A stretch of 33,880 nt of DNA from positions 1 to 33,880 of the IMG/VR virus record IMGVR_UViG_3300048804_000058. The stretch is one strand, 5' to 3'. Source of the DNA: a virus. Position numbers and translations under genes: made by a program. Each line of letters starts with the position of its first letter. Position 1 is the stretch's first letter. The notes under the pieces are model-generated. The model did not search any database. It had not been told where the DNA came from and saw nothing but the letters and a program-made list of their open reading frames with translations. Shown in pieces: positions 2,507 through 33,880 of the stretch.

Positions 2507-4625
2507 CTAAAAATACCTCCATACCAATATAATCAGGTGATGACATAGTAGGTGTAACAGTACCACCAGCGGGAAGAAATACTACTCTCCACGTTCCTGT
2601 TAATGCACCATAAGAAATTAAATCCACAGTGAAATAGCTTGTTGAAGCAGCACTGAAATCTATTTGATCTGGAATAACCACTTTTCCACTATTATTTATA
2701 ATTATAACAACCCCATAAGCCACAGTAAGATTATGTGTAACTGTCAAAATTCCTGCGACTAAATCGGCATTGATAAAAGTAGTGTTATAGAATATACCTG
2801 CACCCACACCAAGATTTCCAGCAGCATCTGTAGTAATATACCTTACACCAGTACCAGAAAGTCCTGTCAATTTTAAATTAATAAATTGTGGTGATCCTGA
2901 TACACTAATATTCTGAGCTGCATCCAATGTTGAAGAAGAATAAGACAAGCTTGTTCCGATTGATACTATCCCCAACACACCTGCTGCGGCTTTTATAATA
3001 CCAGAAAGAGAACCAACTGTTAGACCGGCAAAGGTTGGACTATGTGTAGTTTCCAAAGAAAGATTTGCCCTAAGAGAGGTTGCACCAGTATAAGCAAGAC
3101 TTGCTAAATTTTTTGATCCGTCTGTGACAACTGCATTGGAAATAGTAAGTCCAGTAAGAAGAAGCCCCACATGGGTAACAGTTGACCCAGTAGTTAATCC
3201 TGATATATCAGCTTGAGCCAATGATAAACTTGATTTGAATGTGGCATAAGTAACACTTGCTAAATTCTTTGAAGCATCAGTAACTACAGGAAGAGAAGCA
3301 GTTAACCCTGATAGATTCAGCCCTGCAATAGAAAGTGAAAGTGTGACTGGAAAATCTGCATTTACCAATGCTCTGAAGGATGGCGCAGAAACCGCACCCG
3401 TTGTAGGTCCGGCAAATATTCTATTTGCTGTTTGGTTATCCAATCCAAGTGCTTGAGTAGATAATGACAAAAGGTTATTCTCTGCATCATTTGATAAAGT
3501 GATTGCGGGGTGCTTCAAAGAAACAGCACTTGAAATATCAGTATCAGTGTTTGTTCCTGAAACAAGATTTCTATTGGCATCACTCATTACTACTTTTGAG
3601 GTTGATAGACCTGAAAATGTGCCTGATGCTGAAATTGTTATACTGCTAAAAGAAGGGGAATCGCCTGATTGATATCGTGTATTGATAGCATTTTCTAATT
3701 CATCTATTTTACCTGCTGTCAACACTAATGCAAAATAATCACCGGCAATCCATGACTTGGCAATAGTTCCTTCTTGTGCTCGAACAATATTGAACGTATC
3801 GTCAGTATTCAATGTTGCGGTAACAATTTCTCTATTGATATCAGACAATGGAGTTGATGATGCTTGGCCCCACAAGACACACCTAAACGATCCCGTTGCG
3901 GGGAAAAGTGAACCCTTCCCCGATGCTACTGTTAATTCTAAATCACCAGAACCGATCCCGCTCACAGCAAGTGTGGTTGAAGCATAATTTTTATTTTTCA
4001 AAAAGGATGAAACACCACCACCCGATGCAGATTTATAAGCCGATGCCATGTTCCACCAACTGATACTGGAACTAGTCCAGTCTGCACTATCGGCCCCAGC
4101 AACAGCAAGAATTCGATCTTGTGTCGCCAAGTATGTCCAGCCACTATTGGTAGTTTCAGTTTGTTTGGTATAATCTTCATCGGCGGTAATTGAAGTATTT
4201 GATTTGTCAACAATCGCGCAGAAAATAAGTTCATTGGCTTCTGCTGCGGTGATACTTACAGTTGCACTTGTTCCAACACCGTTATTGATATTGAATGTGT
4301 CAAAATCACCAACACCAGAATATTCGTGAACGGCTATAGTTATATAATCTGCACTATTTGGTGTGACTGTGATCGTGAAAGCACCAGAAGCCGTGGTCAC
4401 ATCACAATCAAATAGATGTGCATAATTCGCCCCACCTGAAGACCGCTCGTTGTAAGTGTTGGGAGGGCTTTGATTGTCTGTTATGATAATAGTTTTGGAA
4501 TACCAAAAACTCACAGCAACAATCAATTTGTGGCCGACAATAGGGGTAACATCCAAGGTTATATCAAGAGAAGCACCGCTATCTGGATTACCAAGTATTT
4601 TTGACTGAACAAGTGAGATAGACAT
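2499..4625 (-). CDS. Large tail-fibre protein with repeats
   Basis: 708 aa. Residues 1 to about 200 look like a beta-sandwich module (HKLIVAVSFWYS, FTITVTPNSADYITIAVHEYSG). A phage-fibre module follows around 225-300, with the phrasing NREIVTATLNTDDTFNIVRAQEG and a GDYFALVLTAGK ending. The rest holds diverged repeats of GLT/SKNLAS/YATF type (STSKVVMSDANRNL, PVVTDASKNLASV, AVVTDGSKNLASL). The last ~110 residues are duplicated in the partial gene at 1-572. Probably a receptor-binding or connecting fibre. An AAAAATC...GATTTTT hairpin lies just upstream. Confidence 0.85.
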   Translation of the reverse strand: MSISLVQSKILGNPDSGASLDITLDVTPIVGHKLIVAVSFWYSKTIIITDNQSPPNTYNERSSGGANYAHLFDCDVTTASGAFTITVTPNSADYITIAVHEYSGVGDFDTFNINNGVGTSATVSITAAEANELIFCAIVDKSNTSITADEDYTKQTETTNSGWTYLATQDRILAVAGADSADWTSSSISWWNMASAYKSASGGGVSSFLKNKNYASTTLAVSGIGSGDLELTVASGKGSLFPATGSFRCVLWGQASSTPLSDINREIVTATLNTDDTFNIVRAQEGTIAKSWIAGDYFALVLTAGKIDELENAINTRYQSGDSPSFSSITISASGTFSGLSTSKVVMSDANRNLVSGTNTDTDISSAVSLKHPAITLSNDAENNLLSLSTQALGLDNQTANRIFAGPTTGAVSAPSFRALVNADFPVTLSLSIAGLNLSGLTASLPVVTDASKNLASVTYATFKSSLSLAQADISGLTTGSTVTHVGLLLTGLTISNAVVTDGSKNLASLAYTGATSLRANLSLETTHSPTFAGLTVGSLSGIIKAAAGVLGIVSIGTSLSYSSSTLDAAQNISVSGSPQFINLKLTGLSGTGVRYITTDAAGNLGVGAGIFYNTTFINADLVAGILTVTHNLTVAYGVVIIINNSGKVVIPDQIDFSAASTSYFTVDLISYGALTGTWRVVFLPAGGTVTPTMSSPDYIGMEVFLDG

Positions 4626-4650
4626 TCCTAAAACTGACTCCTATTCCTAA

Positions 4651-4678
4651 AAATCGCATGATTTTTATTTTTCAAAAA
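4651..4678 (-). terminator. Weak hairpin between structural genes
   Basis: AAAAATC - ATGC - GATTTTT on the minus strand, 26 nt after the stop of 4705-5442 and before the fibre gene. The stem is 7 bp, A+T-rich, ending in a short T run. It may be an attenuator or RNA-processing hairpin rather than a full terminator, since the operon appears to continue. Confidence 0.35.
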
Positions 4679-4704
4679 AACGATCATCAATCAATTTCTG
4701 ATAA

Positions 4705-5442
4705 TTAAGTAGACTGTCCTGTAATTCTCATAGTGATTGAGTTTTTTGCGGCAGCATCGGTTAATGCTAATGTCAAACACAACCATACACCCTGTGAATC
4801 GCCGGGAGTAAGATTTCCAGAACTGGCAACCGCTTTTGCATTATTATCAAAGGCTAACCCATCAGGAGCAGTAATTCTATTTGTTGATGTATCGGTATCA
4901 TTCAATGTTGCAGCCAATGCAAATGTAATTTTACCTAATACATCTGTCTGTTTTATAATCTGTGCAGAAGTCAATGCCAATGTACCGTTTATATTTTTTG
5001 TAAAATATTTTTCATAATAACTTTTTGAACCGACAGTAGGAGTTGATGCATTATAAAAAGGTCTTCGCACTGTTGTGATTCCAGGCTCCATTGTCATAAT
5101 AAGAGAGCTATCACTTGTCTTGAAAATAGTTACTATTCCCGTTGCTGGTGATGCTAAAACCGATTTCATAATTCTTTCAACAGTATTACTACCAACAACT
5201 GGTGTTCCACCAGATAAAGTTAATATTTCTGACTGAATTACACCAGCATTATTTCTACTGGTAACAGTCAAGTCCATTGTATCACCGCCATCTGATGAAC
5301 TTACAGATATTGTACCAGAAGATGCTATATCCGTAAAATCTATTTTAGTGGTCAAATCAATCGCACCACCTTGTGATCCTGTGTCAACTTCTCGCATATT
5401 TGCAGAACCATAATCTAATAATTCACTTGTAAGAACGCTCAT
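4705..5442 (-). CDS. Virion structural protein of unknown family
   Basis: 245 aa, starting MSVLTSELLDYGSANMREV, with a GGAGG ribosome binding site 9 nt upstream. Thr/Ser/Asp/Asn-rich and beta-rich, without transmembrane segments or enzyme motifs. It lies between the large fibre gene and the small protein 5460-5762 on the same strand. Placement in the fibre block suggests a fibre-attachment, baseplate or decoration protein; nothing narrower can be supported. Confidence 0.65.
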   Translation of the reverse strand: MSVLTSELLDYGSANMREVDTGSQGGAIDLTTKIDFTDIASSGTISVSSSDGGDTMDLTVTSRNNAGVIQSEILTLSGGTPVVGSNTVERIMKSVLASPATGIVTIFKTSDSSLIMTMEPGITTVRRPFYNASTPTVGSKSYYEKYFTKNINGTLALTSAQIIKQTDVLGKITFALAATLNDTDTSTNRITAPDGLAFDNNAKAVASSGNLTPGDSQGVWLCLTLALTDAAAKNSITMRITGQST

Positions 5443-5459
5443 GTCTTAATCCTCCATTC

Positions 5460-5762
5460 CTATATTTCCTCAACTGTGAGTTGAGTTTTATGATAATATA
5501 TATAAGGCACAGTATTGCTGGCCTTTGAAAGTTTCCATACAATTTCATACGTTCCTGATGTAATAGTCACATCAGTAGTTATCACAAGTGTTGCTGTATT
5601 TGAACTAACCTCTGCAACATCCTCGGCTTGAACGATGGTCCCATTACTATCATTAACCCATGCACTTGCAGATGTAGGAACCCATATATTATCATTCTGA
5701 TCTCGAATAGATATTGTCACTGGTCTTATTTCATTTTGATAGAACGTATCGTAGGACTTCAA
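5460..5762 (-). CDS. Small Ig-like virion protein
   Basis: 100 aa. The composition and strand pattern (RPVTISIRDQNDNIWVP, ATLVITTDVTITSGTYEIVWKL, YIYYHKTQLTVEE) suggest a single beta-sandwich domain, like the N-terminal modules of phage baseplate or tail proteins. It starts 1 nt after the stop of the HNH gene, which appears to be inserted between this gene and 6369-6965. No enzymatic motif. Exact family unknown. Confidence 0.65.
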   Translation of the reverse strand: MKSYDTFYQNEIRPVTISIRDQNDNIWVPTSASAWVNDSNGTIVQAEDVAEVSSNTATLVITTDVTITSGTYEIVWKLSKASNTVPYIYYHKTQLTVEEI

Positions 5763-6970: not shown

Positions 6971-7297
6971 TTATCCTAATTTTTCTTCTACTTCATCCTT
7001 GCCTTTTTTCAGTTCTTCTTCGTATTCTTTGTCTATTTCCACCAAGGCGGCTTGAAATTCTCCCACATGGGTCTTTTCTTCTTTTGCCACATCTAAAAGC
7101 AATAACTTTATTTTTTCATTTCCCGTTGCTTTCGCCATTTGCTCATAGAGGTTAATGGCATCTAATTCAGCAAGAATGGATATTCTCATCATTTCCTTAT
7201 CAGAATTGCTATCAAGTGGAATCTTAGAAAGAAGTTCTGAAAGCATCCTGCCCTTTTTACCAGCCAAATATTTTTCCGATATATTCTCAATATTCAT
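6971..7297 (-). CDS. Encapsulin-type ferritin-like protein
   Basis: 108 aa with an AAGGAG ribosome binding site. Residues 41-85 (AELDAINLYEQMA ... LLDVAKEEKTHVGEF) closely resemble, from memory, the ferritin-like domain fused to the shell protein of Pyrococcus encapsulin. E44, E52 and the E74-x-x-H77 pair are the likely di-iron ligands of this rubrerythrin/ferritin superfamily. In encapsulins such domains oxidise or store iron in an HK97-fold shell, the same fold as phage capsids. The N-terminus (ISEKYLAGKK) resembles the head-targeting tags of neighbouring proteins but lacks the E at the cleavage position. It lies between the gp4-like and 6369 genes, inside the head-gene block. Iron handling in the virion is an inference. 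Confidence 0.8.
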   Translation of the reverse strand: MNIENISEKYLAGKKGRMLSELLSKIPLDSNSDKEMMRISILAELDAINLYEQMAKATGNEKIKLLLLDVAKEEKTHVGEFQAALVEIDKEYEEELKKGKDEVEEKLG

Positions 7298-7298: not shown

Positions 7299-7757
7299 TT
7301 AGAATAACTCCTTCTCTGTAATTATCTTGAAAATCAAGCCACGTTTCCTACAAAAATCATTGGCCGCATGCCATTTAGCAGTATTGCGAGCATACATCTG
7401 GCTTTCATACATAACCGATTTGAGTGCTTTATTCGGTGATGGTTTTGGAGGATATACTTCTCTATATGGTTTTATTTCCACCACATAGTAAATTTCATGC
7501 CCATCATTGTTCTTTACCACCATTGTAAAATCAGGATAATATCTTTTCCATTTCTTTGTTACAGGATCAATATATGGTATTTCCAAACCCTCAGAGTTCC
7601 ATTTAATGACATTGGGATTATTATCAACCCACTTCATAAATGAGCGTTCCCATTCACTTCTACAAATAGGAAAATCTTTTCCCGTATACTTACTCAAAAA
7701 TTTTGGCTTATACACCTTATGCTTTTCAGCATCAAACACATGGCTCATGAAACTCAT
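7299..7757 (-). CDS. Head-completion nuclease, T4 gp4-like
   Basis: 152 aa, close to the length of T4 gp4. The pattern RSEWERSFMKWVDNNPNVIKW, IPYIDPVTKKWKRYYPDF, then VVEIKPYRE is characteristic of T4-like head-completion proteins. It reads as a PD-(D/E)XK nuclease-type core with E35, P75-D76 and E94-x-K96. In T4 this protein is needed to finish DNA-filled heads before tails attach. The gene is tightly packed, overlapping 7754-8161 by 4 nt and ending 1 nt before the ferritin-like gene. The assignment rests on motif recognition. Confidence 0.8.
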   Translation of the reverse strand: MSFMSHVFDAEKHKVYKPKFLSKYTGKDFPICRSEWERSFMKWVDNNPNVIKWNSEGLEIPYIDPVTKKWKRYYPDFTMVVKNNDGHEIYYVVEIKPYREVYPPKPSPNKALKSVMYESQMYARNTAKWHAANDFCRKRGLIFKIITEKELF

Positions 7758-10079: not shown

Positions 10080-10673
10080 ATGTTAATTAATGTTTTAGTA
10101 TTAATATCAACTGTATTTGGATTCATGTCACTATACTATGGATTTAGAAACTGGGTCTTAATCAAAAGCAATAAATTATGGAATGCATCATGGGCTGCTT
10201 TTATTTCAACTGCCACTCTCATAGGTATTAGAAGGCTTTATTCGTTTCAATACGAACATGAACATATGTTAATTGAATATCTTTTGGTATTAGCAATATC
10301 CATTGGAGCATTCACATTTGCTTTAACAAAAAATAAATTCTTTGAAAAATATCTACGAGATATTAGAGAAGAAAAGGCAGATAAAAATTTCAGAAGAAAA
10401 GAAGAACTCATAAAAACAAAAGAAGAAGGCCGAGAAGAAGCAAATATAGAAAGAGAAAAAGGAAGAGAAACAGAAATACAAGCGCAAGAAAAAGATAGAG
10501 AAGATAAAAAAGAAAGAATTACAATGAGAAGAAGTAAGAGAGAACAAGAAAGCACAGATAGAGGAATAGCGAGAGAAGAAGAAAGCATTACAAGAGAAAA
10601 AGAAAGAATGCAAGAAAGAGAAGAAAGATTGACAGAAAGAAAAAGAAACATAAAAGATAAAAACGATCTATGA
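10080..10673 (+). CDS. Membrane protein with long charged single helix
   Basis: 197 aa. The start at 10080 is preceded by AGAGGTG, 8 nt upstream; a longer open frame from 9969 overlaps the previous gene and lacks such a site. Three hydrophobic segments (about residues 2-18, 36-51, 62-80) are followed by ~110 residues made almost only of Glu, Lys and Arg, e.g. REKGRETEIQAQEKDRED. This ER/K pattern is typical of a rigid single alpha-helix. It could act as a membrane-anchored spacer or scaffold; no family recognised. The stop overlaps the next start (ATGA). Confidence 0.7.
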   Translation: MLINVLVLISTVFGFMSLYYGFRNWVLIKSNKLWNASWAAFISTATLIGIRRLYSFQYEHEHMLIEYLLVLAISIGAFTFALTKNKFFEKYLRDIREEKADKNFRRKEELIKTKEEGREEANIEREKGRETEIQAQEKDREDKKERITMRRSKREQESTDRGIAREEESITREKERMQEREERLTERKRNIKDKNDL

Positions 10674-10906
10674 GACTAAAAAAATATTTATCAGAACAAG
10701 ACGGTGTATCTTCGAACCCCAGCAATCAAACATCTGGTGGCTTTGCGAATTATGGTATGGGGGCAGTTGCATATAAGCCAAAGGATCAAATCGACAGAAA
10801 GAAAAAGAAGAAAAAGAAAGAACCGAAAGAAGTTAAAAAGCCATTAACATTTCGACCAATAGCAGATACATCAGGAGAAACAACTGATAGCATGAGGCAA
10901 TACTAA
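10670..10906 (+). CDS. Tagged small basic protein (MRLKKYLSEQ)
   Basis: 78 aa. It begins MRLKKYLSEQD, the first of five consecutive plus-strand genes with the tag MRLxxY[LIM]xE. L-S-E fits the T4 prohead protease cleavage pattern, and the tag resembles the T4 internal-protein targeting peptide (MKTYQEFIAE). Behind it are a Gly/Asn/Ser stretch and a poly-Lys run (RKKKKKKKEPKEVKK), as expected for a DNA-binding or internal head protein. Start coupled to the upstream stop by ATGA, with no separate ribosome binding site. Confidence 0.75.
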   Translation: MRLKKYLSEQDGVSSNPSNQTSGGFANYGMGAVAYKPKDQIDRKKKKKKKEPKEVKKPLTFRPIADTSGETTDSMRQY

Positions 10907-11433
10907 TGAGGCTTGAAAAATACATGCAAGAGCAAATGGCGGGTGGTGGTGGAATGACTTCTGGTGGAATAGCTGGAGGAGCAAAAGGTGGAGAAATTGG
11001 AAGTGGTGCCACAACAACAAGCAAGATAGCCAAATTTTATCCTTACTACATTTATAATAAGAAGAAGAAGAAAAAAAAATTATTGAGTAGGAGAAAGGAA
11101 GAAATGACCATGACCAAGGAAGAGAAACTACTTTGGGAGCAGGGGCATCAAGTTGCTAAAACCATTCTTACACAAATTCATTCTTTAGATAAGTGGGCAT
11201 TGGGAGCATGGGGAGCACAAGATTTTGTATCAACAAACAATCCATCAAGTCTTCAGTTTAGAGTGAATGGAGCAAAATTCAAAGGAAAGGTTGTTATTCA
11301 TCTAAACGGAAAGGATTTATATGATATAGATTTTGGTGTGGGAAAAGATTTAAAATGGGTTTCAAAACACAAAGAACATGATATCTATGCTGAAGATTTA
11401 GTCAAAATACTTGATGACTATATTGAGAAATAA
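10906..11433 (+). CDS. Tagged protein: Gly-rich linker, poly-Lys, conserved phage domain
   Basis: 175 aa beginning MRLEKYMQEQ (tag; M-Q-E at the cleavage position). Residues 13-40 are Gly-rich, residues 52-58 are seven Lys, and from about residue 68 (MTKEEKLLWEQGHQVAKTIL ... WALGAWGAQDF ... LQFRVNGAKFKGKVVIHLNGKDLYDI) there is a compact domain that I recognise as a common stand-alone phage protein of unknown function. A tag and linker therefore seem to have been fused to it. An internal start at 11104 or 11110 (ATGACCATGACC after AGAAAGGAAG) could also make the domain alone. The stop TAA shares its A with the next ATG region. Confidence 0.75.
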   Translation: MRLEKYMQEQMAGGGGMTSGGIAGGAKGGEIGSGATTTSKIAKFYPYYIYNKKKKKKKLLSRRKEEMTMTKEEKLLWEQGHQVAKTILTQIHSLDKWALGAWGAQDFVSTNNPSSLQFRVNGAKFKGKVVIHLNGKDLYDIDFGVGKDLKWVSKHKEHDIYAEDLVKILDDYIEK

Positions 11434-12813
11434 ATGAGACTTAAATATTATATAACCGAAGCAGATGAAAAAATTAAAGTCGTAATTCTCACAACAAAGA
11501 ATGATGAAAAAAAAGAAGATTCTGGTGGGGATAAACTCTTTGACACATCAAAGAAAATCAAAGAGTATTGTGAAAAGAAAAAAATAAGTCATTATGTATT
11601 ATACGCCGAGAATGCATTCATCAATCGAAATAAAGATGATATGACCGTCCATAATTCCGATGACAAACAAGGATTTAAAATACACAAAAACAATACAGCA
11701 GTTGTTGTTCGAGGAACTTTTGATACACTATCAACTGGCCTTGACCTTCTTTCCAGAATGGAAAATGCTGGTATATTCTGTGTAAATGGAAGAGAAGCAA
11801 TAGAAATATGCTCCGATAAATATCGAACAATTCTCGCCATGGAAGACAATGAGATAAAATGCCCCAAGACAGCAACGGTAGTGAATAAAGATGGGCTTGG
11901 GGGCGCATTTAAACGAATTGGTGGAAAATTCCCATGTATCTTAAAAACCATAACAGGATCAAAGGGTATTGGAGTGTTTTTTGCGGATTCGTGGATTGGC
12001 ATGAATTCTACTCTTCAGGCAATGTGGAAAGTAGATGAAGAAGTACAGATATTGATGCAGGAATACATTGAAGCAGATTTTGATATGAGAATCCATGTTC
12101 TGGGTGGTGAAGTCATAGGAGCAATGAAAAGATTCAAAATAAAAAATGATTTCAGATCAAATTATTCTCTTGGTGGCAAAATTGAAGAGATGAAAGTAAA
12201 TGACAAATTGAGAGAATTTGCTATCAATGCAGCGAAGGCAATAGGGGGAATATGGGTCGGTGTAGATGTAATGGATGCAGGAAAAGAGGATTATCGCGTT
12301 ATCGAAGTCAACTCTTCACCAGGGACAGAAGGAATAGAAAAAGCCACCCATAAAAATATAGTTGGAACAGTAGTAAAGTTCATAACCGATAAGAACAATT
12401 GGGCTGATATAAAAAAGACAGAATGTGGTTTCGTTGAAAAAATAAAAATAGAAAAAACAGATAAAGAATTTGATGCCAAAATGGATACGGGCAATAGTTC
12501 TTACTCTGTCATTCATGCCAACAAATGGAAAATAAATGGCGATAATATAAGATGGGAAATGTATGGAAAGAAATATACCGATGAATTAGACTCCATGAAA
12601 GAAGTAGAAGCAGGAGCGACAGAACATAAGAGAGAAGAAAGACCCGTCATAAAGTTGAATGTAATTTTCAACGGGGAAACATACAAAAACGTTAGATTCT
12701 GTCTATCAGATCGAGAAGATTTTTCAACTCCTGTATTGATGAATCGCCAATTTATTAGACGGGCTGGATTAATAGTCAACCCATCATTGAAATATGCTCT
12801 ATCGGAAAAATAA
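11434..12813 (+). CDS. Tagged RimK-like ATP-grasp ligase fused to RimB-like protease domain
   Basis: 459 aa. Tag MRLKYYITEA (I-T-E). Residues ~15-320 form a RimK-type ATP-grasp glutamate ligase: CPKTATVV, the ATP-binding lysine in FPCILKTITGSKGIGV, the LMQEYIEAD strand, DMRIHVLGGEVIGAMKR, and the metal-binding end VIEVNSSPG. RimK adds glutamates to the C-terminus of ribosomal protein S6. Residues ~335-459 match the retropepsin-like RimB / RimK-associated zinc-protease family, with AKMDTG at 349-353 and LSDRED plus VLMNRQF near the end. A ligase and its partner hydrolase in one chain, with a head-targeting tag, suggest an injected ribosome-modifying enzyme; that target is inferred. Confidence 0.85.
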   Translation: MRLKYYITEADEKIKVVILTTKNDEKKEDSGGDKLFDTSKKIKEYCEKKKISHYVLYAENAFINRNKDDMTVHNSDDKQGFKIHKNNTAVVVRGTFDTLSTGLDLLSRMENAGIFCVNGREAIEICSDKYRTILAMEDNEIKCPKTATVVNKDGLGGAFKRIGGKFPCILKTITGSKGIGVFFADSWIGMNSTLQAMWKVDEEVQILMQEYIEADFDMRIHVLGGEVIGAMKRFKIKNDFRSNYSLGGKIEEMKVNDKLREFAINAAKAIGGIWVGVDVMDAGKEDYRVIEVNSSPGTEGIEKATHKNIVGTVVKFITDKNNWADIKKTECGFVEKIKIEKTDKEFDAKMDTGNSSYSVIHANKWKINGDNIRWEMYGKKYTDELDSMKEVEAGATEHKREERPVIKLNVIFNGETYKNVRFCLSDREDFSTPVLMNRQFIRRAGLIVNPSLKYALSEK

Positions 12814-13118
12814 TGAGACTACAAGAATATCTTACAGAAAAAGAAGAAAGGAAAGTTGTTGTTTATAACATAAAGAATGTAGATCAGCTTCACCAAAGAA
12901 TGAAAGAAATGAGCGTGGGAAATGAGTATGCATGGATTGCCCACACAGTCTTTGGTATGACAACTCTGACCGCATATAAACGCCCAAGTCTTATACCATA
13001 TATTGCGATAGGCGATTCTCCCATAGCATTCAAAGGATTTTATCAGAATGGAGAGTTCAAGGATTTTCCTACTGCTCAAAAAATCAAATACCAGAATAGT
13101 AATATGGGATCAGAATGA
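12813..13118 (+). CDS. Tagged hypothetical protein (MRLQEYLTEK)
   Basis: 101 aa. Tag MRLQEYLTEK (L-T-E). The remainder is an alpha/beta domain (KVVVYNIKNVDQLHQRMKEM, YAWIAHTVFGMTTL, PYIAIGDSPIAFKGFY) with no family I recognise. Start coupled to the upstream stop (TAATGAG) and overlapping the Nudix start by 4 nt. Probably co-packaged with the other tagged proteins if the tag works as proposed. Confidence 0.7.
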   Translation: MRLQEYLTEKEERKVVVYNIKNVDQLHQRMKEMSVGNEYAWIAHTVFGMTTLTAYKRPSLIPYIAIGDSPIAFKGFYQNGEFKDFPTAQKIKYQNSNMGSE

Positions 13119-13570
13119 GACTCAATAAATATATAACAGAAGAAAAAAAACTCAGTGTAGGTCTTATTCTTACAGATGGAGAAGTATTTCTCGCCGTTAG
13201 ACCTACAAATGGATTTCTCTATGATATGCCAAAAGGAATGGGCAATCCAGGAGAAAACCCTGTTGAAACTATTGTAAGGGAGTTCAAAGAAGAAACAAAC
13301 ATTGACATATCGAGATATAAATCACAACTAACCCCAATGGGAAAACATTATTATACAAACTATAAAGACGTTGACGTTTTTGTCCTGAAACTTGAAAATC
13401 TTCCTTCAATATCTTCAATGAAATGCACTTCAATGTTTCATATAAGACCCGATGAACTCGCGCCAGAAGTTGATCAATTCCATTATATCAATTGGAACAA
13501 TTTGAAAATGTTCAATTCTGGTATGAAAAACATTCTGGAAAAAGTAAGAGAAAAAATAAAAAACCCATAA
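13115..13570 (+). CDS. Tagged Nudix hydrolase
   Basis: 151 aa. Tag MRLNKYITEE (I-T-E). The Nudix box runs from G41 to I63 and fits G-x5-E-x7-REUxEExGU, with N replacing the last G (REFKEETNI), so the metal-binding glutamates are present. Nudix enzymes hydrolyse nucleoside diphosphates linked to another group, such as NAD, ADP-ribose or RNA caps; the substrate cannot be read from sequence. Last gene of the plus operon, ending at a hairpin shared with the convergent minus operon. T4 also encodes a Nudix enzyme, but tagging one for the head would be unusual. Confidence 0.85.
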   Translation: MRLNKYITEEKKLSVGLILTDGEVFLAVRPTNGFLYDMPKGMGNPGENPVETIVREFKEETNIDISRYKSQLTPMGKHYYTNYKDVDVFVLKLENLPSISSMKCTSMFHIRPDELAPEVDQFHYINWNNLKMFNSGMKNILEKVREKIKNP

Positions 13571-15034: not shown

Positions 15035-15706
15035 TTAATGCTGAACAAAAAGAACATCAGACCTTGTTTGGCAAGCGGTGCATGTTTCCCCACAAACCAC
15101 CTTATTTCCTGGTTTGCATGGACAAACAAAGGCACCTGTTTCTCCTGCACGAATGTTTATTTCTTGTTCTGGGCCAAAGTTAACTTTACCACCAACAAAA
15201 GAACTTACGACATTGAAATTAGGAAGAGATTTAATCTTTCCAAAATCCCATATATGTTCTGTTTTAGTATATGTATAGAATCTTACATCAGGTCTTTCTT
15301 TTGCAATTTCAAACCACATATCAAGATATGCTTGAGAGAACATATCACCTGATTCATGAATTCTGACAATATCTCCTGATTCTAACTTCGATAATATTTG
15401 TTTTTTCAAAAGTTCGGGGGCTTCTTTAGCAAGTCTAAAATTTCGGCCTCGTGCTGCCCTGACAGCAGGATATTGTCTTTCTGCTTTTCTAGCATAGCAG
15501 AATTTAGCACATTGGGAAGAATTTGGGCAACTCTGTATAGCGGGAAGATTGAATATTTTTATCTTCTTGGATAATTTCAAATTTCCTTTAGACATAAAAA
15601 CCCAAAGGTCTTCAAGAGGAATTTGTTCTACAGGAACATTTTTATACTTCACTGCCATTTCTTTTTCTCTTTTGTCCACTTCTACCAAAAAATTTTCATA
15701 TCGCAT
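15035..15706 (-). CDS. GP88-like protein with head-tag-like N-terminus
   Basis: 223 aa. It starts MRYENFLVEVDK; NFL-V-E matches the L-x-E cleavage pattern and resembles the tags of the plus operon. The body (SKGNLKLSKKIKIFNLPA, SCPNSSQCAKFCYARKAE, VRAARGRNF) matches the phage GP88 family, named after a mycobacteriophage gene product. The Cys clusters C-x5-C-x3-CYA and a later CPCKPG...C...CTAC suggest bound metal or an Fe-S cluster. A TATAAATA late box lies 28 nt upstream. Biochemical function of the family is not known to me. Confidence 0.75.
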   Translation of the reverse strand: MRYENFLVEVDKREKEMAVKYKNVPVEQIPLEDLWVFMSKGNLKLSKKIKIFNLPAIQSCPNSSQCAKFCYARKAERQYPAVRAARGRNFRLAKEAPELLKKQILSKLESGDIVRIHESGDMFSQAYLDMWFEIAKERPDVRFYTYTKTEHIWDFGKIKSLPNFNVVSSFVGGKVNFGPEQEINIRAGETGAFVCPCKPGNKVVCGETCTACQTRSDVLFVQH

Positions 15707-16605: not shown

Positions 16606-16682
16606 TGGTGAGGTCGGGGGGAATCGAACCCCCATGTGCGCAGGGTAAGAGCCTGTTACAAGCCAATATTTGTTACGACCTC
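16606..16682 (-). tRNA. tRNA-Lys(CTT)
   Basis: Acceptor GAGGTCG/CGACCTC, discriminator A, encoded CCA. Anticodon loop CTCTTAC gives CTT. T arm GGGGG-TTCGATT-CCCCC. Top pair of the anticodon stem is A-C. The CCA is followed at once by AAGGA for the next gene. Confidence 0.9.
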
Positions 16683-16683
16683 A

Positions 16684-16944
16684 TTATATTTCAAACAAAT
16701 CTTTTGGTAATTTAAACTTTATGATCGAGCCTAATTTCACAGAAAGAAAAAAACAATATTCATTATTCGAAACCAGATTTCCACTACATGTTACATAATC
16801 TTTATTGGAAGAAAATATCTTTTGGTATCGTGTAGAAGATGTTAAATGAAACTCTCTCCCAATATATTCTTTTCGTTTATCATAAAAACCATCGGAGAAC
16901 TCTATATCTTCTATAATTACTGTATCACCATGTTCGAATTTCAT
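16684..16944 (-). CDS. Small beta-rich protein, SH3-like
   Basis: 86 aa, starting MKFEHGDTVIIEDIEF and ending FKLPKDLFEI. The start (K-x-GD-x-V-x-I) and the ending resemble the small protein at 25305-25496 and the last residues of 18063-18527 (FFPKDLFKIE), suggesting a family of small barrel proteins spread through the tRNA block. The stop is 1 nt from the 5-prime end of tRNA-Lys. Function unknown. Confidence 0.6.
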   Translation of the reverse strand: MKFEHGDTVIIEDIEFSDGFYDKRKEYIGREFHLTSSTRYQKIFSSNKDYVTCSGNLVSNNEYCFFLSVKLGSIIKFKLPKDLFEI

Positions 16945-16945
16945 T

Positions 16946-17170
16946 CTACTTCCTATTCAGATAAGCATTTATATTTTTCAATTCTGTTATTGCTTTTCTT
17001 GCTTCATACATTGAATTTATATATTCACTCTCTTTGCGATATTTGATATATTGAAATAATTTCTTCAATGTAAAAATAAAAAAACATATACCGATAATAA
17101 GATATATAATCCCCATTGTTTTTACAATTATGGGATTGGGATTAGTCAATTGTGGAATATTCGCTATCAT
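16946..17170 (-). CDS. Small membrane protein
   Basis: 74 aa with one clear transmembrane helix (IIVKTMGIIYLIIGICFFIF, about residues 14-33) followed by a charged helix. It lies between tRNA-Val(TAC) and 16684-16944, 9 nt after the encoded CCA; no strong ribosome binding site. No family recognised. Confidence 0.6.
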   Translation of the reverse strand: MIANIPQLTNPNPIIVKTMGIIYLIIGICFFIFTLKKLFQYIKYRKESEYINSMYEARKAITELKNINAYLNRK

Positions 17171-17178
17171 AAAATTTT

Positions 17179-17255
17179 TGGTACGGGATGGTGGATTTGA
17201 ACCACCTACCTTTCGGGTGTAGGCCGAATGTTCTTCCCAAGTGAACTAATCCCGC
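17179..17255 (-). tRNA. tRNA-Val(TAC), C33
   Basis: Acceptor GCGGGAT/ATCCCGT (G-T first pair), discriminator A, CCA encoded. Stem TTCGG/CCGAA with loop CCTACAC: anticodon TAC and C instead of the near-universal T at position 33. T arm GGTGG-TTCAAAT-CCACC. Confidence 0.85.
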
Positions 17256-17261
17256 ATTATT

Positions 17262-17783
17262 TTAATACAACCATTTTTCGTTTCTAAAATCACCATATTC
17301 TTGAACGGCACCATAAATATTTTGAACTATGTCTGTTCGATGAACCATTATTTTACAAGTGCCATAAAGCAATTTTCCTTTTTTCTTTTTCGAAGAAAAT
17401 TTAGAATACTTATTTATAATTGATTTTCTTAAACAACTTTTCGGCAAACACAAAGCATTACACCAATATGCTTCAATATCAGATATTGACATTCCGTTAT
17501 TATCATAAGCATTTATTTCTAATTTTATTTCTTCTATCCGAACATTATAACATTCCATCAAAAACTTCAGAAAAAATTTCAACATATTAACATCTGAATT
17601 TGTAAGTATGACGGAATTTTTCTTTTTAGAACCCTCACCCCAAAACAACATACATCCAGAAATATGTAACCAATTCAATTCCTTTGCTTTTTGTTTTCCC
17701 TTATTTTGGCACTCTTCTCTTAATTTTCTAAATTTATCTTGAGCGAATGTATTACCAAAATGTATTAAATTTTTGTTTACCAA
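17262..17783 (-). CDS. Possible LAGLIDADG-like / WGEGSK-domain protein
   Basis: 173 aa with a TTG start (17781-17783) after a GAG-rich stretch, overlapping the previous stop by 7 nt. The core LHISGCMLFWGEGSKKKNSV, then TNSDVNMLKFFLKFL, matches a widespread uncharacterised family whose (A/G)xxxWGEGS motif recalls degenerate LAGLIDADG helices. A homing-type endonuclease inserted in the tRNA block is possible but unproven. A TATAAATAAGTA sequence occurs inside the gene near 17409-17420 and may be chance. Confidence 0.6.
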   Translation of the reverse strand: MVNKNLIHFGNTFAQDKFRKLREECQNKGKQKAKELNWLHISGCMLFWGEGSKKKNSVILTNSDVNMLKFFLKFLMECYNVRIEEIKLEINAYDNNGMSISDIEAYWCNALCLPKSCLRKSIINKYSKFSSKKKKGKLLYGTCKIMVHRTDIVQNIYGAVQEYGDFRNEKWLY

Positions 17784-17968
17784 CTCTTTTTACTCCAAGA
17801 AATATTTCGTTCTGTCTTTCCTAACTTTCGGCCTTTTCGTAAACCCTTGGCCTCTGCTTCTTTCAGACAATACTGGCAGGGGTCAAGAAAATAAACACCA
17901 TTATCCACACCCGTTGCTGTTTTTGGTTTTCCCAAATCCCCGCTACATTTTGAACAAAAATAATTCAT
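17777..17968 (-). CDS. Zinc-binding C4 protein
   Basis: 63 aa from MNYFCSKCSG; AAGGA 7 nt upstream decides this start, since the longer frame reads back through tRNA-Val(GAC). The pattern YFCSKCSGDL ... GVYFLDPCQYCLKEAEAKG matches each of two repeats in the protein at 24156-24626 (YYCDKCNADL ... IAIKPCHACLEEANNAG). It is thus a single-copy version of that zinc finger. The basic C-terminus suggests nucleic-acid contact. Function unknown. Confidence 0.7.
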   Translation of the reverse strand: MNYFCSKCSGDLGKPKTATGVDNGVYFLDPCQYCLKEAEAKGLRKGRKLGKTERNISWSKKSW

Positions 17969-17985
17969 TTTACTTTCCTTTCTTT

Positions 17986-18061
17986 TGGTGCGGAATGTTG
18001 GTTTCGATCCAACTACCTTTGCCGTGTCAGGACAACGCTCTCCCAATTGAGCTAATCCCGC
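17986..18061 (-). tRNA. tRNA-Val(GAC)
   Basis: Acceptor GCGGGAT/ATTCCGC, discriminator A, CCA encoded. Stem TTGTC/GGCAA, loop CTGACAC, anticodon GAC. Complements tRNA-Val(TAC). Confidence 0.9.
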
Positions 18062-18062
18062 A

Positions 18063-18527
18063 TTATTCTATTTTGAACAAATCCTTTGGAAAAAAAGCAG
18101 GACGAATTACTGTAAACCCTCGCGCTATCAGTTTATCATATTGTTCATCGGTCACTTCATGGTCAATATAACCATACTCATCAATATTTTCCATCATTAT
18201 TTTTGCTTCATAAAGACCATTATTAAAAACTTCTCGTAAATCCTTTACGGCAGCAATTCTCAATTCAATTTTTTTTGAAATTCTGCTTTTGGCTGAAGGC
18301 AAATAAAATGAATTATCCTCTTCATCTATAATTTTGAACCCAACATAAATTAAATCATTTTTTTGAATATCGGTCAATTCAGAAACAAAATAACCATTGT
18401 CTCTTATGCTTTCTGCCATTTCTTTTGCTTCTTTCAAACCAACAAAAAGAATAGAACGAATTTCCTTTATGATTGTAATAAATCTTTGGGAAACATAATC
18501 ATGGTCTTTTGAGATTTTATAGTTCAT
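18063..18527 (-). CDS. Tandem ribosomal L7/L12 C-terminal-domain-like protein
   Basis: 154 aa made of two repeats: about residues 15-67 (RFITIIKEIRSILFVGLKEAKEMAES, then TDIQKNDLIYVGFKII) and 88-141 (LRIAAVKDLREVFNNGLYEAKIMMEN, then TDEQYDKLIARGFTVI). Each matches the bL12 C-terminal domain pattern (K-I-x-V-I-K-x-x-R-x..G-L-x-EAK, then a G-x-x-V/I end). In ribosomes this domain recruits EF-Tu, EF-G, IF2 and RF3. There is no N-terminal dimerisation domain to bind L10, so it would not simply replace host L12. It has its own consensus promoter. A role in binding translation factors is inferred. Confidence 0.75.
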   Translation of the reverse strand: MNYKISKDHDYVSQRFITIIKEIRSILFVGLKEAKEMAESIRDNGYFVSELTDIQKNDLIYVGFKIIDEEDNSFYLPSAKSRISKKIELRIAAVKDLREVFNNGLYEAKIMMENIDEYGYIDHEVTDEQYDKLIARGFTVIRPAFFPKDLFKIE

Positions 18528-18533
18528 ATTATA

Positions 18534-18562
18534 ATTATATCAGAGTTTTCAATATATGTCAA
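18534..18562 (-). promoter_or_regulatory. Consensus sigma70 promoter for L12-like gene
   Basis: Perfect TTGACA (18557-18562), 17-bp spacer, perfect TATAAT (18534-18539); the -10 lies 7 nt before the ATG at 18527, giving a near-leaderless transcript. Confidence 0.85.
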
Positions 18563-18594
18563 GAAAAAAGTTTTACATATATATCAATAAGTTA

Positions 18595-18684
18595 TGGCGG
18601 AGAGAATGGGATTTGAACCCATGGGAGCATGGTGACTCCACCTGCTTTCCAGACAGGCACCTTAAACCACTCGGCCATCTCTCC
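18595..18684 (-). tRNA. tRNA-Ser(GGA)
   Basis: Acceptor GGAGAGA/TCTCTCC, discriminator G, CCA encoded. Loop CTGGAAA, anticodon GGA, with the long variable arm typical of serine tRNAs. The stop of 18662-18901 lies inside its D loop. Confidence 0.9.
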
Positions 18685-18901
18685 GAATTTGGTCAATAAC
18701 TTTCACTTCATCTATCCAACACGCATCAGAGTATATTGATTTATGAGAACCATTATGCTCTATAATGTATTGATGATTATCGAGTAATTTTTTGGCATCA
18801 TACGTAAAGGCAACTACATGATCTGGATAATCAGAAAATCTAGCAATGTATGTATTGTTTTCTCTGGTCGATAATATATCTATTTTTATTTTATCCATCA
18901 T
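18662..18901 (-). CDS. Small hypothetical protein ending inside tRNA-Ser
   Basis: 79 aa, starting MMDKIKIDILSTREN. The last eight codons and the TAA lie within the tRNA-Ser(GGA) gene (23-nt overlap), so the same RNA must serve as message or tRNA. The start is 8 nt after the CCA of tRNA-Ser(GCT), with a weak AAAAGA site. No family recognised. Confidence 0.6.
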   Translation of the reverse strand: MMDKIKIDILSTRENNTYIARFSDYPDHVVAFTYDAKKLLDNHQYIIEHNGSHKSIYSDACWIDEVKVIDQIRRDGRVV

Positions 18902-18908
18902 AATCTTT

Positions 18909-18996
18909 TGGAGGAAGGGACAGGATTCGAACCTGCGGGGCTTTTACACCCAAAAGTTTAGCAAACTTTCATCATAAACCACTCGATCACCCTTCC
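18909..18996 (-). tRNA. tRNA-Ser(GCT)
   Basis: Acceptor GGAAGGG/CCCTTCC, discriminator T, CCA encoded. Stem AAAGT/ACTTT, loop TTGCTAA, anticodon GCT, long variable arm. Discriminator T is unusual for serine, where G is usual. Confidence 0.9.
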
Positions 18997-19002
18997 GAAT
19001 TT

Positions 19003-19079
19003 TGGAGGCGGCAGAGAGACTCGAACCCCCGCATTTTCTGTTTTGCAGACAGACGCATTACCATCTTTGCTATGCCGCC
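19003..19079 (-). tRNA. tRNA-Cys(GCA)
   Basis: Acceptor GGCGGCA/TGCCGCC, discriminator T, CCA encoded. Stem TCTGT/ACAGA, loop CTGCAAA, anticodon GCA. Overlaps the stop of 19070-19369 by 10 nt. Confidence 0.9.
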
Positions 19080-19369
19080 TTAATCTTTTTCCATCCTTTC
19101 TTACCTATGACAAACCCAGTTTCTCGCAACCATTTTTCCCAATAGTTTTTCACAAAATCCCAATCTTCAACTTCAGAACTTGTGAAACCAAGAAATTCAT
19201 TTTTGGATTCATCCCAAGAAGCATCATGAACACCATATGTTTCTTCCAACCAAGTCATATCAGATTCAGAAACTATATCTAGGAAATCCTGAAAATCCAT
19301 CGAACAACTAACAAGAGGAAGACGATATGTTATTTCCTCGTTTTCATCGTGAAGCACAAAATACTTCAT
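19070..19369 (-). CDS. Hypothetical acidic protein
   Basis: 99 aa starting MKYFVLHDENEEITYRLP, Glu/Asp/Trp-rich (DFVKNYWEKWLRETGFV), with AAAGGAAA before the ATG. The final codons AAG-GCG-GCA-TAG run into the 5-prime end of tRNA-Cys. Overlaps the DUF4326 gene start region by 4 nt. No family recognised. Confidence 0.65.
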   Translation of the reverse strand: MKYFVLHDENEEITYRLPLVSCSMDFQDFLDIVSESDMTWLEETYGVHDASWDESKNEFLGFTSSEVEDWDFVKNYWEKWLRETGFVIGKKGWKKIKAA

Positions 19370-19635
19370 ACAATTTCCTTTCCTATATAATCCGCCAATA
19401 ATGCTAATATGTCACCATGGCATCCTTTGGGTTTACACCAGCACCCCAAAGTTTTATCTTTCAATTCATGTAAATCAGCAAGAAGTTTTTCATTCTTCAT
19501 TATCCATACTTGATATTTCTGTAATACCTTCTCCCTGTTGCCGTCTTTGCCTATAGCAAATGGATTGCCCCATTTACTGGGCCTTCCGATATATACATCA
19601 TATGCTTCTTTTTTACAATGAACTACTTTTGTCAT
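19366..19635 (-). CDS. DUF4326-family protein
   Basis: 89 aa from ATG at 19635 (MTKVVHCKKEAYD); a TTG at 19659 would add eight residues. The motifs VYIGRPSKWGNPF, a middle REKVLQKYQVWI helix and LGCWCKPKGCHGDIL are those of DUF4326, a family common in phages. The conserved Cys/His (C-W-C ... C-H-G-D) suggest metal binding. Function unknown. The start lies within the end of the zinc-ribbon gene 19613-19816. Confidence 0.85.
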   Translation of the reverse strand: MTKVVHCKKEAYDVYIGRPSKWGNPFAIGKDGNREKVLQKYQVWIMKNEKLLADLHELKDKTLGCWCKPKGCHGDILALLADYIGKEIV

Positions 19636-19816
19636 TTTTTCTCTTATTGTATATATCAATATTGCTTTCTAATACTTCACAATCGAGACTTTCATTTGGG
19701 TTGCACAAACTGCAAAGAACCGATGGATACCTTCTTATAATTCCTTTCCTACATATATGGCAGAGAATTAATTTATCTCTCTTCTTAAATAAATGTCGAT
19801 TATCAATTGCTTCCAT
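19613..19816 (-). CDS. Small zinc-ribbon protein
   Basis: 67 aa. C-x2-C (CHIC) and C-x2-C (CSLC) 16 residues apart form a zinc ribbon; the C-terminus is Lys/Ser/Asn-rich. The start is 7 nt downstream of the encoded CCA of tRNA-Gly(TCC), with AGG between as ribosome binding site. Function unknown. Confidence 0.65.
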   Translation of the reverse strand: MEAIDNRHLFKKRDKLILCHICRKGIIRRYPSVLCSLCNPNESLDCEVLESNIDIYNKRKNDKSSSL

Positions 19817-19823
19817 AATACCT

Positions 19824-19901
19824 TGGAGCGGGTGGAGGGACTCGAACCCTCACTAAAAGGGTGGAAGCCTTTCGTGCTGTTCCGTTAAACACTACACCCG
19901 C
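19824..19901 (-). tRNA. tRNA-Gly(TCC)
   Basis: Acceptor GCGGGTG/CACCCGC, discriminator T, CCA encoded. Stem AAAGG/CCTTT, loop CTTCCAC, anticodon TCC. Overlaps the C-terminal codons of 19885-20265. Confidence 0.9.
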
Positions 19902-20265
19902 TTATATCAAACATCTCATTAGGAAGTTCAATAAGCACCTTCAAATCATACGGTGATATATACCACTTGCCAACAAGATAATCCGCATACTTTACTATTT
20001 TTAACTGATGATAAATTTTTGTATAAGATTCATCAATCGTCCTGTATTCAATGTAATATACCGTTTTGGAAATCACCTTATATTTTTTATTCAATGGTAT
20101 ATATATATTTGCCTTTACTATTTGATCGTCATTAAATTCTACATATGGGCCGCGCTTACCAACAACAAGACGATCATAGCCTTTGCAAACAAGCATATCT
20201 GATTTTGTATGGAAAAGAAGGTCTTCATTCTTCTTTATGTATTTCAAATAATTAACAAGTTCCAT
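19885..20265 (-). CDS. Conserved phage hypothetical protein
   Basis: 126 aa. The phrases MLVCKGYDRLVVGKRGPYVEF and QLKIVKYADYLVGKWYISPYDLK belong to a family I have seen in phages and bacteria without known function. Beta-rich. Its last codons extend 17 nt into tRNA-Gly(TCC). It directly follows 20266-20637 (the ATG abuts that stop). Role unknown. Confidence 0.65.
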   Translation of the reverse strand: MELVNYLKYIKKNEDLLFHTKSDMLVCKGYDRLVVGKRGPYVEFNDDQIVKANIYIPLNKKYKVISKTVYYIEYRTIDESYTKIYHQLKIVKYADYLVGKWYISPYDLKVLIELPNEMFDISGCSV

Positions 20266-20779: not shown

Positions 20780-20790
20780 ATTCACCTTTT

Positions 20791-20868
20791 TGGCAGGAGC
20801 AGTAGGGATTCGAACCCTAATCTTTCGGTTTTGGAGACCGATATTTTTCCAATTAAACTACTCTCCCG
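20791..20868 (-). tRNA. tRNA-Trp(CCA)
   Basis: Stem TCGGT/ACCGA, loop CTCCAAA, anticodon CCA. GCCA at the 3-prime end as in E. coli tRNA-Trp. The acceptor stem is irregular: GGGAGAG against TGCTCCT or CTGCTCC leaves mismatches or needs an 8-bp stem with a C-G closing pair. Confidence 0.8.
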
Positions 20869-31858: not shown

Positions 31859-33880
31859 TTATTTAAAGAAGAGACTTAACCTATATCCCGAATCATTCAA
31901 TAAATTTGTTTTATTCATTGGAGCAAGAAGCATTTTTATCTTTTCAGTAAAATTGTTTTCTATTTGCTTATTATAATCTATTTGAATAATTCTGTCAAAT
32001 TCTTTCGGCCAACGTAAAAAAGAAACTTCTTCAAATCCAAAAACATTAGGTTTCAAATAAACTACCTTTGTCTTATTACCATCAACTAACTCTTCATATT
32101 TATCTGTCAGCTTGAGATGTTTCAATAAGTACCGATAAGCATGAACACCTTTTACATGCCATGGGGCACCTTTTAAAACCACATTTCCTTTGATATAATC
32201 ACTCATTCCTCTTATCCCAATATTCATTGAGATTTCTTCGGGAATACAATTCATCAACTCGGCTTTATATGTATTTATCTTTTCTGTTATCTCATTATCT
32301 GATTTTCTTTTCAAAATCATTTCCATTATTTCTTTGAGTTTAGGGCGAATGGCTTCTGGTGTTTCTGAACGAATAATTTCCAATCCTTTTGTTTTTATTT
32401 CATCTACAGTAGCACCTTCTTCATCAACAATCCACATGGAATATTTTTTCTTCTTTACAAATAATGCTGTCTTGGCAACCATTTCCTGTTTGAATGTTAT
32501 CTTGAAATCCGTAACTGCTGAATTATAAAATCCCCGCTGTATTTCCTTATATTCTCTATCATTTATATATTCATAAACAATACGGGATACTCTAATCAAA
32601 TAATGAATTTTCTTTTTTTCATCCAATTCTTGCCAAATTTTTCCGCCAACAACATCCATAAAATAACCCATTTTGACATACAGTGAATCCGTATCTCCAT
32701 AAGCCACCATATCATTTTTTATTTCAGGATATTCTGTTATGCCCATCTGCCCAAGAACATCTTTCATTTCCTTATTTTTTGCATATATCCCTTGCTGGAA
32801 AAATTCATTGATAAATTTTTCTCCATATCGAACAGTAATTCTACCACAAGAAGCAATCGCTTCCGATAGGTTGACGTTAAAGTATCTCGAATATGGAACT
32901 GCTGTAATTCCAAATTGAGCATTCATTACAATTTTCAAAGAATTTTGAATTGAGTTTAATTGCTCTATTCTTTCCTTCGCGTTATTGAGATTTACATCAC
33001 GCAATTCTGGAAGAGACTGTTTTACTTTTATCATTCTCTTCTTTGTGTCTTTTCTTATATCGAAAATGCTTCTTTCCAATTTTGCGAGAACACCCTCTGG
33101 TTTGGTTCTGAATACAGAACCATTTGGGGCAACAGCCAATGCCCGTCTTTCTAAAAGAGCATTGAAGGTAGATAGTTTTTGTCCTTCAAATATATCCTGC
33201 TCACCGTTCAATTTGGTTATGGTAAATGATGGAAAATTTCTGCTCACCACATAAAAAATAATCTTGTCTTCTGGTATCCCTGTAATGCGCCCAAAATAAG
33301 TTTCCTTTGACATATTGAGTGCTATAATATGGGTTGGATAAGATGATGTAATATCAAAATCACAAATCCAATCATACATTCCACTTTGCGGTTCTTTGAC
33401 ATAAGCCGCTTCAAATGTCTCCTGTTTTCCGCCAGAAAAGTGCGGTGCGCACAAACCATTTCTTCTGAAATATGCAATAAAAAGACCTTCAATCAATTGG
33501 GTCTGCGCCACATAAAATTTCATCGGTACTTTGCACAACAAAGATAATGATTGAACCAGTTTTATATAGCCAAGTTTTTCTTCCAGTTGTTTCGGCCTGA
33601 TTGTATCCATTACATTATATTCGATGAACAAATCATGATTTTTATTGTAAAATTCATTCAAATCTTTATATTCCGAATAATCAACTTTACCTTTTTCTAA
33701 TTCATGTTTACTTACAAAATCAAGAGAATATCTTTCCAGTTTCTTCGGAGAATATCGTTTATACAAATCCATATAATCTAATACGGTAACACCCGCTATA
33801 TCCAATTTCGCAGGACCTTTTTCCTCTTCCCATATCCTAACAGTATTGATAGGAGACATTGCCTTATATATATTTGTGTC
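31859..33880 (-). CDS. Family B DNA polymerase, T4 gp43-like, N-terminus beyond window
   Basis: Open to the right edge; 673 residues visible, so roughly the N-terminal quarter is missing, including Exo I. Counting from the Met at 33859: Exo III YNVMD (81-85), palm motif A CDFDITSSYP (166-175), motif B KIVMNAQFG (309-317), motif C YGDTDS (387-392). The SSYP and NAQFG variants are those of T4-like replicative polymerases. The C-terminal end SGYRLSLFFK looks like the sliding-clamp-binding tail of gp43. It copies the phage genome with proofreading. The Met at 33859 is internal, not the start. Confidence 0.95.
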   Translation of the reverse strand, partial: DTNIYKAMSPINTVRIWEEEKGPAKLDIAGVTVLDYMDLYKRYSPKKLERYSLDFVSKHELEKGKVDYSEYKDLNEFYNKNHDLFIEYNVMDTIRPKQLEEKLGYIKLVQSLSLLCKVPMKFYVAQTQLIEGLFIAYFRRNGLCAPHFSGGKQETFEAAYVKEPQSGMYDWICDFDITSSYPTHIIALNMSKETYFGRITGIPEDKIIFYVVSRNFPSFTITKLNGEQDIFEGQKLSTFNALLERRALAVAPNGSVFRTKPEGVLAKLERSIFDIRKDTKKRMIKVKQSLPELRDVNLNNAKERIEQLNSIQNSLKIVMNAQFGITAVPYSRYFNVNLSEAIASCGRITVRYGEKFINEFFQQGIYAKNKEMKDVLGQMGITEYPEIKNDMVAYGDTDSLYVKMGYFMDVVGGKIWQELDEKKKIHYLIRVSRIVYEYINDREYKEIQRGFYNSAVTDFKITFKQEMVAKTALFVKKKKYSMWIVDEEGATVDEIKTKGLEIIRSETPEAIRPKLKEIMEMILKRKSDNEITEKINTYKAELMNCIPEEISMNIGIRGMSDYIKGNVVLKGAPWHVKGVHAYRYLLKHLKLTDKYEELVDGNKTKVVYLKPNVFGFEEVSFLRWPKEFDRIIQIDYNKQIENNFTEKIKMLLAPMNKTNLLNDSGYRLSLFFK

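Follow-up and report, generated by a model that had tools for sequence, protein, structure and literature searches.

A putative capsid-targeting peptide at the start of unrelated proteins in an uncultured T4-like phage

Introduction

Five consecutive plus-strand open reading frames (ORFs) of the viral record IMGVR_UViG_3300048804_000058 (33,880 nucleotides; this whole 33.9-kb stretch is called the window below) open with a common nine-residue peptide, MRLxxY[LIM]xE, referred to here as the tag, which raises the question of why proteins that otherwise appear unrelated should begin in the same way. Judging from the comparisons described below, the tag is very probably a capsid-targeting sequence of the type found on the internal proteins of phage T4, cleaved by a prohead protease of the gp21 type, and injection of the tagged proteins into the host as effectors is also probable, though we hold this with somewhat less confidence. 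The internal proteins of T-even phages are diverse defence proteins whose sole common feature is the capsid-targeting sequence (reviewed in PMC3012670).

Tagged genes of the window

All five ORFs and their N-termini were found as described in the initial annotation. Its count of five holds for the run itself, but it missed a sixth tagged gene about 1.5 kb away on the opposite strand and understates the total, the genome having about 18 tagged genes besides the five. The tagged genes and their tags are as follows (lengths in amino acids, aa).

10670..10906, plus: tagged gene 1, 78 aa, small basic Lys-rich protein (isoelectric point 9.8 after E9) without a family; tag 1 at 10670..10696, plus, MRLKKYLSE (then Q), in which L-S-E matches the gp21 motif
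10906..11433, plus: tagged gene 2, 175 aa, Gly/Lys-rich linker followed by a C-terminal alpha/beta domain (phrog_9437); tag 2 at 10906..10932, plus, MRLEKYMQE (then Q), in which M-Q-E is a near miss of L/I-x-E
11434..12813, plus: tagged gene 3, 459 aa, RimK ATP-grasp ligase (127-317) fused with a RimB retropepsin-like domain (332-455, DTGN); tag 3 at 11434..11460, plus, MRLKYYITE (then A)
12813..13118, plus: tagged gene 4, 101 aa, 10 kDa, without a family and without a match in isolates; tag 4 at 12813..12839, plus, MRLQEYLTE (then K)
13115..13570, plus: tagged gene 5, 151 aa, Nudix hydrolase, the domain directly following the tag; tag 5 at 13115..13141, plus, MRLNKYITE (then E)
15035..15706, minus: sixth tagged gene, 223 aa, GP88 family (PF17338); tag 6 at 15680..15706, minus, MRYENFLVE (then V)

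When the first 10 residues were removed, no pairwise similarity was detected among the five bodies of the run (BLASTP, E<=1), in agreement with their earlier description as otherwise unrelated. The L/I-x-E ending is exact in four of the five consecutive tags and is M-x-E in tag 2, and the statement that all fit or nearly fit is accurate. The RimK-RimB enzyme and the Nudix hydrolase that had been named among the tagged proteins were likewise recovered as Pfam domains in genes 3 and 5.

Frequency and codon usage of the tag

A near-identical contig of 155,948 bp, IMGVR_UViG_3300046710_000261 (G001), in which the RimK gene of the window has 100% protein identity, was read whole (308 ORFs). The strict pattern M[RK][LIVFYM]xx[YF][LIMV]xE was found at 14 of the 308 ORF starts, against 0.01 expected with shuffled N-terminal residues, and at none of 738 internal methionines. 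A relaxed grammar gave 24 starts, one of them doubtful, which lie mainly in three separate clusters (~62-72, 104-113, and 140-145 kb) and use both strands. The search of the rest of the genome for further tags, proposed in the initial annotation, was therefore productive: the tag is common to the five consecutive genes and ~18 others, and at least 20 mostly unrelated predicted proteins of one T4-like phage open with the same short peptide.

Strict tags were also present in seven of eight relatives (G003-G010), 2 to 20 in each (e.g., 20 in G010, 13 in G006, and 6 in G004), against ~0.01-0.03 expected; G009 had none, while a looser pattern occurred nine times there against 2.1 expected. The reversed pattern had no match in 18 further contigs, and because these contigs had been preselected by a similar forward pattern, this zero control is the only informative part of that comparison. 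Shifted out of frame by one base, the pattern gave 17 chance matches, compared with 62 in frame.

It had also been claimed that conservation extends to the DNA. All five starts of the run do share ATGAG[AG]CT, and all are fused to or abut the upstream stop, which is overlapped by 4 bases (ATGA) at 10670 and 13115 and by 1 base (TAATG) at 10906 and 12813, and directly abutted at 11434. One could accordingly regard the common 5' end as a translation signal (coupled re-initiation), or as the remnant of a recent 5'-end duplication, that has no function at the protein level. We consider this extremely improbable, because the tag codons vary while the amino-acid classes stay constant, the tags occupy separate clusters on both strands, and orthologues in distant phages retain the amino-acid grammar with other residues and other codons. 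Genome-wide, codon 3 of the tag is CTA, CTT, TTA, TTG, or CTC, and the Arg codon is mostly AGA, like the rest of the genome. Because the codons vary while the peptide is conserved, it is the peptide that is under selection; these codon counts rule out a separate signal at the DNA level, where the conservation is a by-product of codon usage.

Similarity to the T4 capsid-targeting sequence and to capsid propeptides

The resemblance to the T4 peptide noted earlier was borne out, since IPII and IPIII both open with MKTYQEFIAE in the T4 record and the functional positions mapped in T4 match those of the tag. According to a review of T4 head work (PMC9026906), the first ten residues of IPIII are enough for packaging; residues 4 and 7 are the main determinants of targeting, residues 8 and 10 those of processing, and T4 gp21 cleaves after L/I-x-E. 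When L3-x-x-Y6-[LIM]7-x-E9 is aligned to Y4-x-x-F7-I8-x-E10, the residues at all four positions agree in class, the spacing L-x-x-Y-L-x-E being that of Y-x-x-F-I-x-E. The candidate targeting pair, L3 and Y6, falls on T4 positions 4 and 7 with identical spacing, T4 Y4 being replaced by L.

The propeptide junction of the T4 major capsid protein gp23, SFLTE/A (residue 65; the slash marks the cut), corresponds to AFLSE/A in phage Mosig, NWLQE/A in G010, and NYLME/A in G007. We found x[LIM]xE at this place in 65 of 77 related capsid-protein ORFs, with F, Y, W, or H mostly as first residue, in loci that are partly redundant and with the cleavage position taken over from T4. The predicted cleavage half of the tag is thus the same as the major-capsid propeptide junction ([YFW]LxE) of relatives.

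Short amphipathic peptides at N-termini can serve various purposes, and the tag might be an unrelated localisation or interaction peptide (e.g., one docking to the replication compartment or to a host membrane protein); we give this very little credence, as it leaves unexplained the identity with the capsid junction, the position next to gp21 and gp22 in relatives, and the lineage-specific replacement of the tag on one cargo family (both described below). Alternatively, the tag might target the head or another site and remain uncleaved, its L/I-x-E ending being coincidental. The protease gene was not found in the virus's own contig, and studies of SPN3US indicate that propeptide regions removed in one giant phage may remain uncut in another, but relatives have the same [YFW]LxE at their capsid propeptide junction and x-E is retained in the RimK-RimB tags of distant phages, so that we consider an uncleaved tag quite improbable.

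Head genes and the prohead protease

The gp21 protease (PF03420) had no match in G001, which also lacks recognisable gp20, gp22, and gp23; T4 and Mosig head-region proteins gave BLASTP matches in G001 only to UvsW, gp4, SSB-like, aminotransferase-like, and RNA ligase-like proteins. The proposed search for a T4 gp21-like protease hence failed in this contig, while it succeeded in relatives that carry the head module: the family was above the Pfam cut-off in G007, G009, G010, G023-G026, Mosig, T4, and YerA41, and a gp21 homologue was present in 64 of the 80 capsid-protein loci listed, none of which comes from the two metagenomes of this virus. Two genes of the window are relevant here.

7299..7757, minus: gp4 homologue (45% identical to the putative head completion protein of phage Mosig), a T4-type head gene, untagged
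31859..33859, minus: family B DNA polymerase of T4/cyanophage type, cut by the window end

Because of the latter we assign the virus to the T4-like phages. In G010 the genes for the portal, a KSGHxY-type protein, and gp4 stand side by side, and synteny suggests that the gp20-gp23 block lies beyond the left end of the window, although no viral contig extending past this end was found by exact match. A small rubrerythrin/EncFtn-like (encapsulated-ferritin-like) protein adjoins the gp4 gene (6971-7297, minus).

Tagged ORFs occur near gp21 or gp23 in ~20 contigs, some of them close to gp21 (e.g., MNFEKYLTEA in G010 and MKLIEKIDEYLNE in G009). In homologues of window protein 2, a tag-like peptide is almost directly joined to the same domain. 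They lie between gp21 and gp22 in three loci (L353, L365, and L385) and just before gp22 in a fourth (L380), giving the order gp20-gp21-[protein 2 homologue]-gp22-gp23; this sample is biased to the head region because the loci were fetched via the capsid gene, while the exact slot is consistent. No fold was assigned to window protein 2 itself, whose low-confidence model (predicted local distance difference test, pLDDT, 66.7) gave no better than middling matches with a best Z of 6.0.

RimK-RimB and other enzyme cargo

The RimK ATP-grasp domain of window protein 3 scored 135.5 bits against PF08443 (PDB relatives 7qyr and 4iwx), and its RimB-type domain 50 bits against PF05618, above the cut-off (PDB 9g58); the DTGN carrying the DTG catalytic motif is kept in four phage homologues. 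In bacteria, RimB both takes glutamates off S6 and stimulates RimK, and the two also occur as RimBK hybrids (PMC11957791). By analogy, the phage enzyme may ligate and trim glutamates on ribosomal protein S6 or the like, this target being a guess from the family.

A search for RimK-RimB homologues gave 453 viral stretches, of which 80 were retained. The majority of homologues with a complete 5' end open like MKAPKFKEFIAEA, MQVPKFREYITEA, or MEVPKFKDFLTEE, and a minority otherwise; many T4-like contigs carry KF[KN][DE][YF][IL][TSA]E-like tags. The cultured pelagiphage Mosig, also T4-like, has a tagged RimK-RimB too. In two loci (L088 and L093), a single long reading frame encodes other domains followed by RimK-RimB and contains internal tag-like sites (FREFMEANR and FSNFLESKR); it looks like a polyprotein cleavable by a prohead protease.

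The Nudix protein has a tagged homologue in G005 (MKLLNFLKE), and other tagged proteins of G001 include two C39-like cysteine peptidases and one zeta-toxin/AAA_33-like kinase. Enzyme domains open soon after the tag. A CCA-adding enzyme (tRNA nucleotidyltransferase) at 65288-66730 of G001 has a weak tag, MDFRRFYLFEAE, and proteins resembling it in size and N-terminal sequence are clearly tagged in G006 (4208-5629, MRFHNYINE) and G008 (78499-79929, MRLTRYLNE); the tagged form is possibly a head-packaged tRNA repair enzyme.

The nature of this cargo bears on whether the tag might bring proteins into the prohead only for a role within the head, as core or assembly factors. Some tagged genes and the homologues of protein 2 do lie inside the gp20-gp23 block, where T4 encodes its core proteins gp67 and gp68. 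Against this, many tagged genes lie far from the head genes and encode enzymes that probably act on substrates of the host (RimK-RimB, Nudix, C39 peptidases, kinase, and the ADP-ribosyltransferase-like family described below), and the T4 precedents Alt and IPI are active in the host (PMC9026906). We regard a role confined to the head as unlikely, though it is the strongest of the alternatives considered here.

An ADP-ribosyltransferase-like family and lineage-specific tags

In a family of tagged paralogues from G001, G003, G004, G005, and G007, the arginine of a YRG motif and a glutamate late in the sequence are conserved (invariant R47 and E180); its members are compact tandem proteins of ~200-300 aa. 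An AlphaFold2 model had a pLDDT of 85.5, with tag residues below 50, and most of its VIA-align rows were ADP-ribosyltransferases (ARTs) with modest Z (2aua 6.8, Arr 5.0, diphtheria toxin 4.2, PARP ~3). No named ART family was matched in Pfam or PHROGs scans, a sequence search of the family alignment against PDB gave nothing significant, and Foldseek alone gave no match to the model at E<=0.001.

Homologues are present in the jumbo phages Atu_ph07 and SCTP-2. Their starts differ by lineage, being MRLxxYLxE in the present group, M[RK]WxQL[TN]E in Atu_ph07 (e.g., MRWxQLTE), and MK[IV]NDLLKE-like in SCTP-2 (e.g., MKINDLLKE). The tag of one cargo family thus differs from lineage to lineage, while one phage places unrelated cargo under one tag; because the ART-like cargo switches its tag by lineage, the tag belongs to the phage rather than to the cargo. 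In Atu_ph07 the ART-like genes are gp53-gp62, ten tandem paralogues annotated as hypothetical (L327/L328; record 39484-49507). They lie inside the cluster of coding sequences 31-76; for this cluster as a whole, mass spectrometry of virions of the cultured phage revealed 29 proteins (PMC6102473). Another dialect is seen in a 343-kb jumbo contig (G026, locus L301), where gp21 and ten MRFKxYLxE-like tags lie at 30-183 kb.

Proposed mechanism and comparison with known systems

The initial reading of the tag as a head-targeting and cleavage peptide is supported by the excess of tags, the match to T4 positions, the capsid junctions, the gp21-gp22 slot in relatives, the tagged RimK-RimB homologues, and the lineage-specific tags of the ART-like family. 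The RimK homologue of YerA41, a phage whose particles have been analysed by liquid chromatography-tandem mass spectrometry (PMC7354516), is annotated as "structural protein", which points the same way. Under this reading, L3 and Y6 would dock each tagged protein onto the prohead core during head assembly, and Y6-[LIM]7-x-E9 would be cut after E9 by the gp21-type protease, removing nine residues. The freed cargo would stay among the packaged DNA and enter the host along with it; for the window this cargo would be the Lys-rich peptide, the small alpha/beta protein, the RimK-RimB fusion, the 10-kDa protein, the Nudix hydrolase, and the GP88 protein. Packaging, cleavage, and injection of these proteins, like the presence of gp21 in this virus, are steps that we infer.

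Three observations weigh against targeting with cleavage. In one of the five consecutive tags, the residue before x-E is M and not L or I. The YerA41 homologue, the sole one labelled as a virion protein, has no clean L/I-x-E tag. Finally, the gp21 gene is missing from the virus's own contig, which, however, lacks the whole gp20-gp23 block.

The tagging device is already known from T4, in which IPI, IPII, and IPIII share a ~10-residue N-terminal peptide (hydrophobic-x-x-aromatic-[IL]-x-E) that is cut after E by gp21. The present tag is one residue shorter, with MRL in place of MKTY, and stands on ~20 or more cargo proteins in one genome, several of them recognisable enzymes, compared with three in T4, its cleavage being predicted. 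The family with a putative ART-like fold recalls T4 Alt, a packaged and injected ADP-ribosyltransferase, but comprises compact tandem paralogues that matched no named ART family in Pfam or PHROGs, and its activity is putative. The head ejection proteins of phiKZ and SPN3US also have N-terminal propeptides, are cleaved after Glu by a gp21-like protease, and are ejected into the host, as is predicted here; their propeptides are mostly of 100 or more residues, and phiKZ cuts at S/A-x-E, whereas here nine residues end in L/I/M-x-E. Like bacterial RimBK hybrids, the phage protein joins an ATP-grasp glutamate ligase and a retropepsin-like domain on one chain, but RimK precedes RimB, a capsid-type tag stands ahead of both, and the arrangement occurs in hundreds of viral stretches.

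What is new is the scale (~20 or more cargo proteins in one genome), the enzymes among the cargo, the dialects of the separate lineages, and the wide occurrence in a large clade of uncultured T4-like phages; no published description of such large-scale tagging was found in a search of mostly open-access literature. We are inclined to think, with some reserve, that this whole clade loads an arsenal of at least 20 proteins into its heads by means of an exchangeable nine-residue signal, that the dialect of each lineage matches its own core and protease, and that injected effectors can be read from sequence. The arsenal would include RimK-RimB, Nudix, C39 peptidases, a zeta-toxin-like kinase, tandem ADP-ribosyltransferases, and, in some members, the CCA-adding enzyme.

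Other features of the window

The region 16606-31571 (minus) is densely set with 34 predicted tRNA genes, which serve nearly all amino acids, and it includes an RF-1-domain (GGQ) release-factor-like protein (21915-22391). Also present are a dual-specificity-phosphatase-like protein (22624-23106, minus), slightly under the PF00782 cut-off, and a 518-aa protein with five IPT/TIG immunoglobulin-like repeats (29066-30622, minus), which is probably a virion surface or fibre protein.

Significance

Phage proteins that enter the host ahead of phage gene expression are known for few phages, and a tag readable from sequence would permit their prediction genome-wide and would single out candidates for takeover and anti-defence enzymes in unculturable phages. 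The differences among lineage dialects would permit tests of core and protease specificity, and the tags would provide natural signals, nine residues long, with which foreign proteins could be loaded into phage heads.

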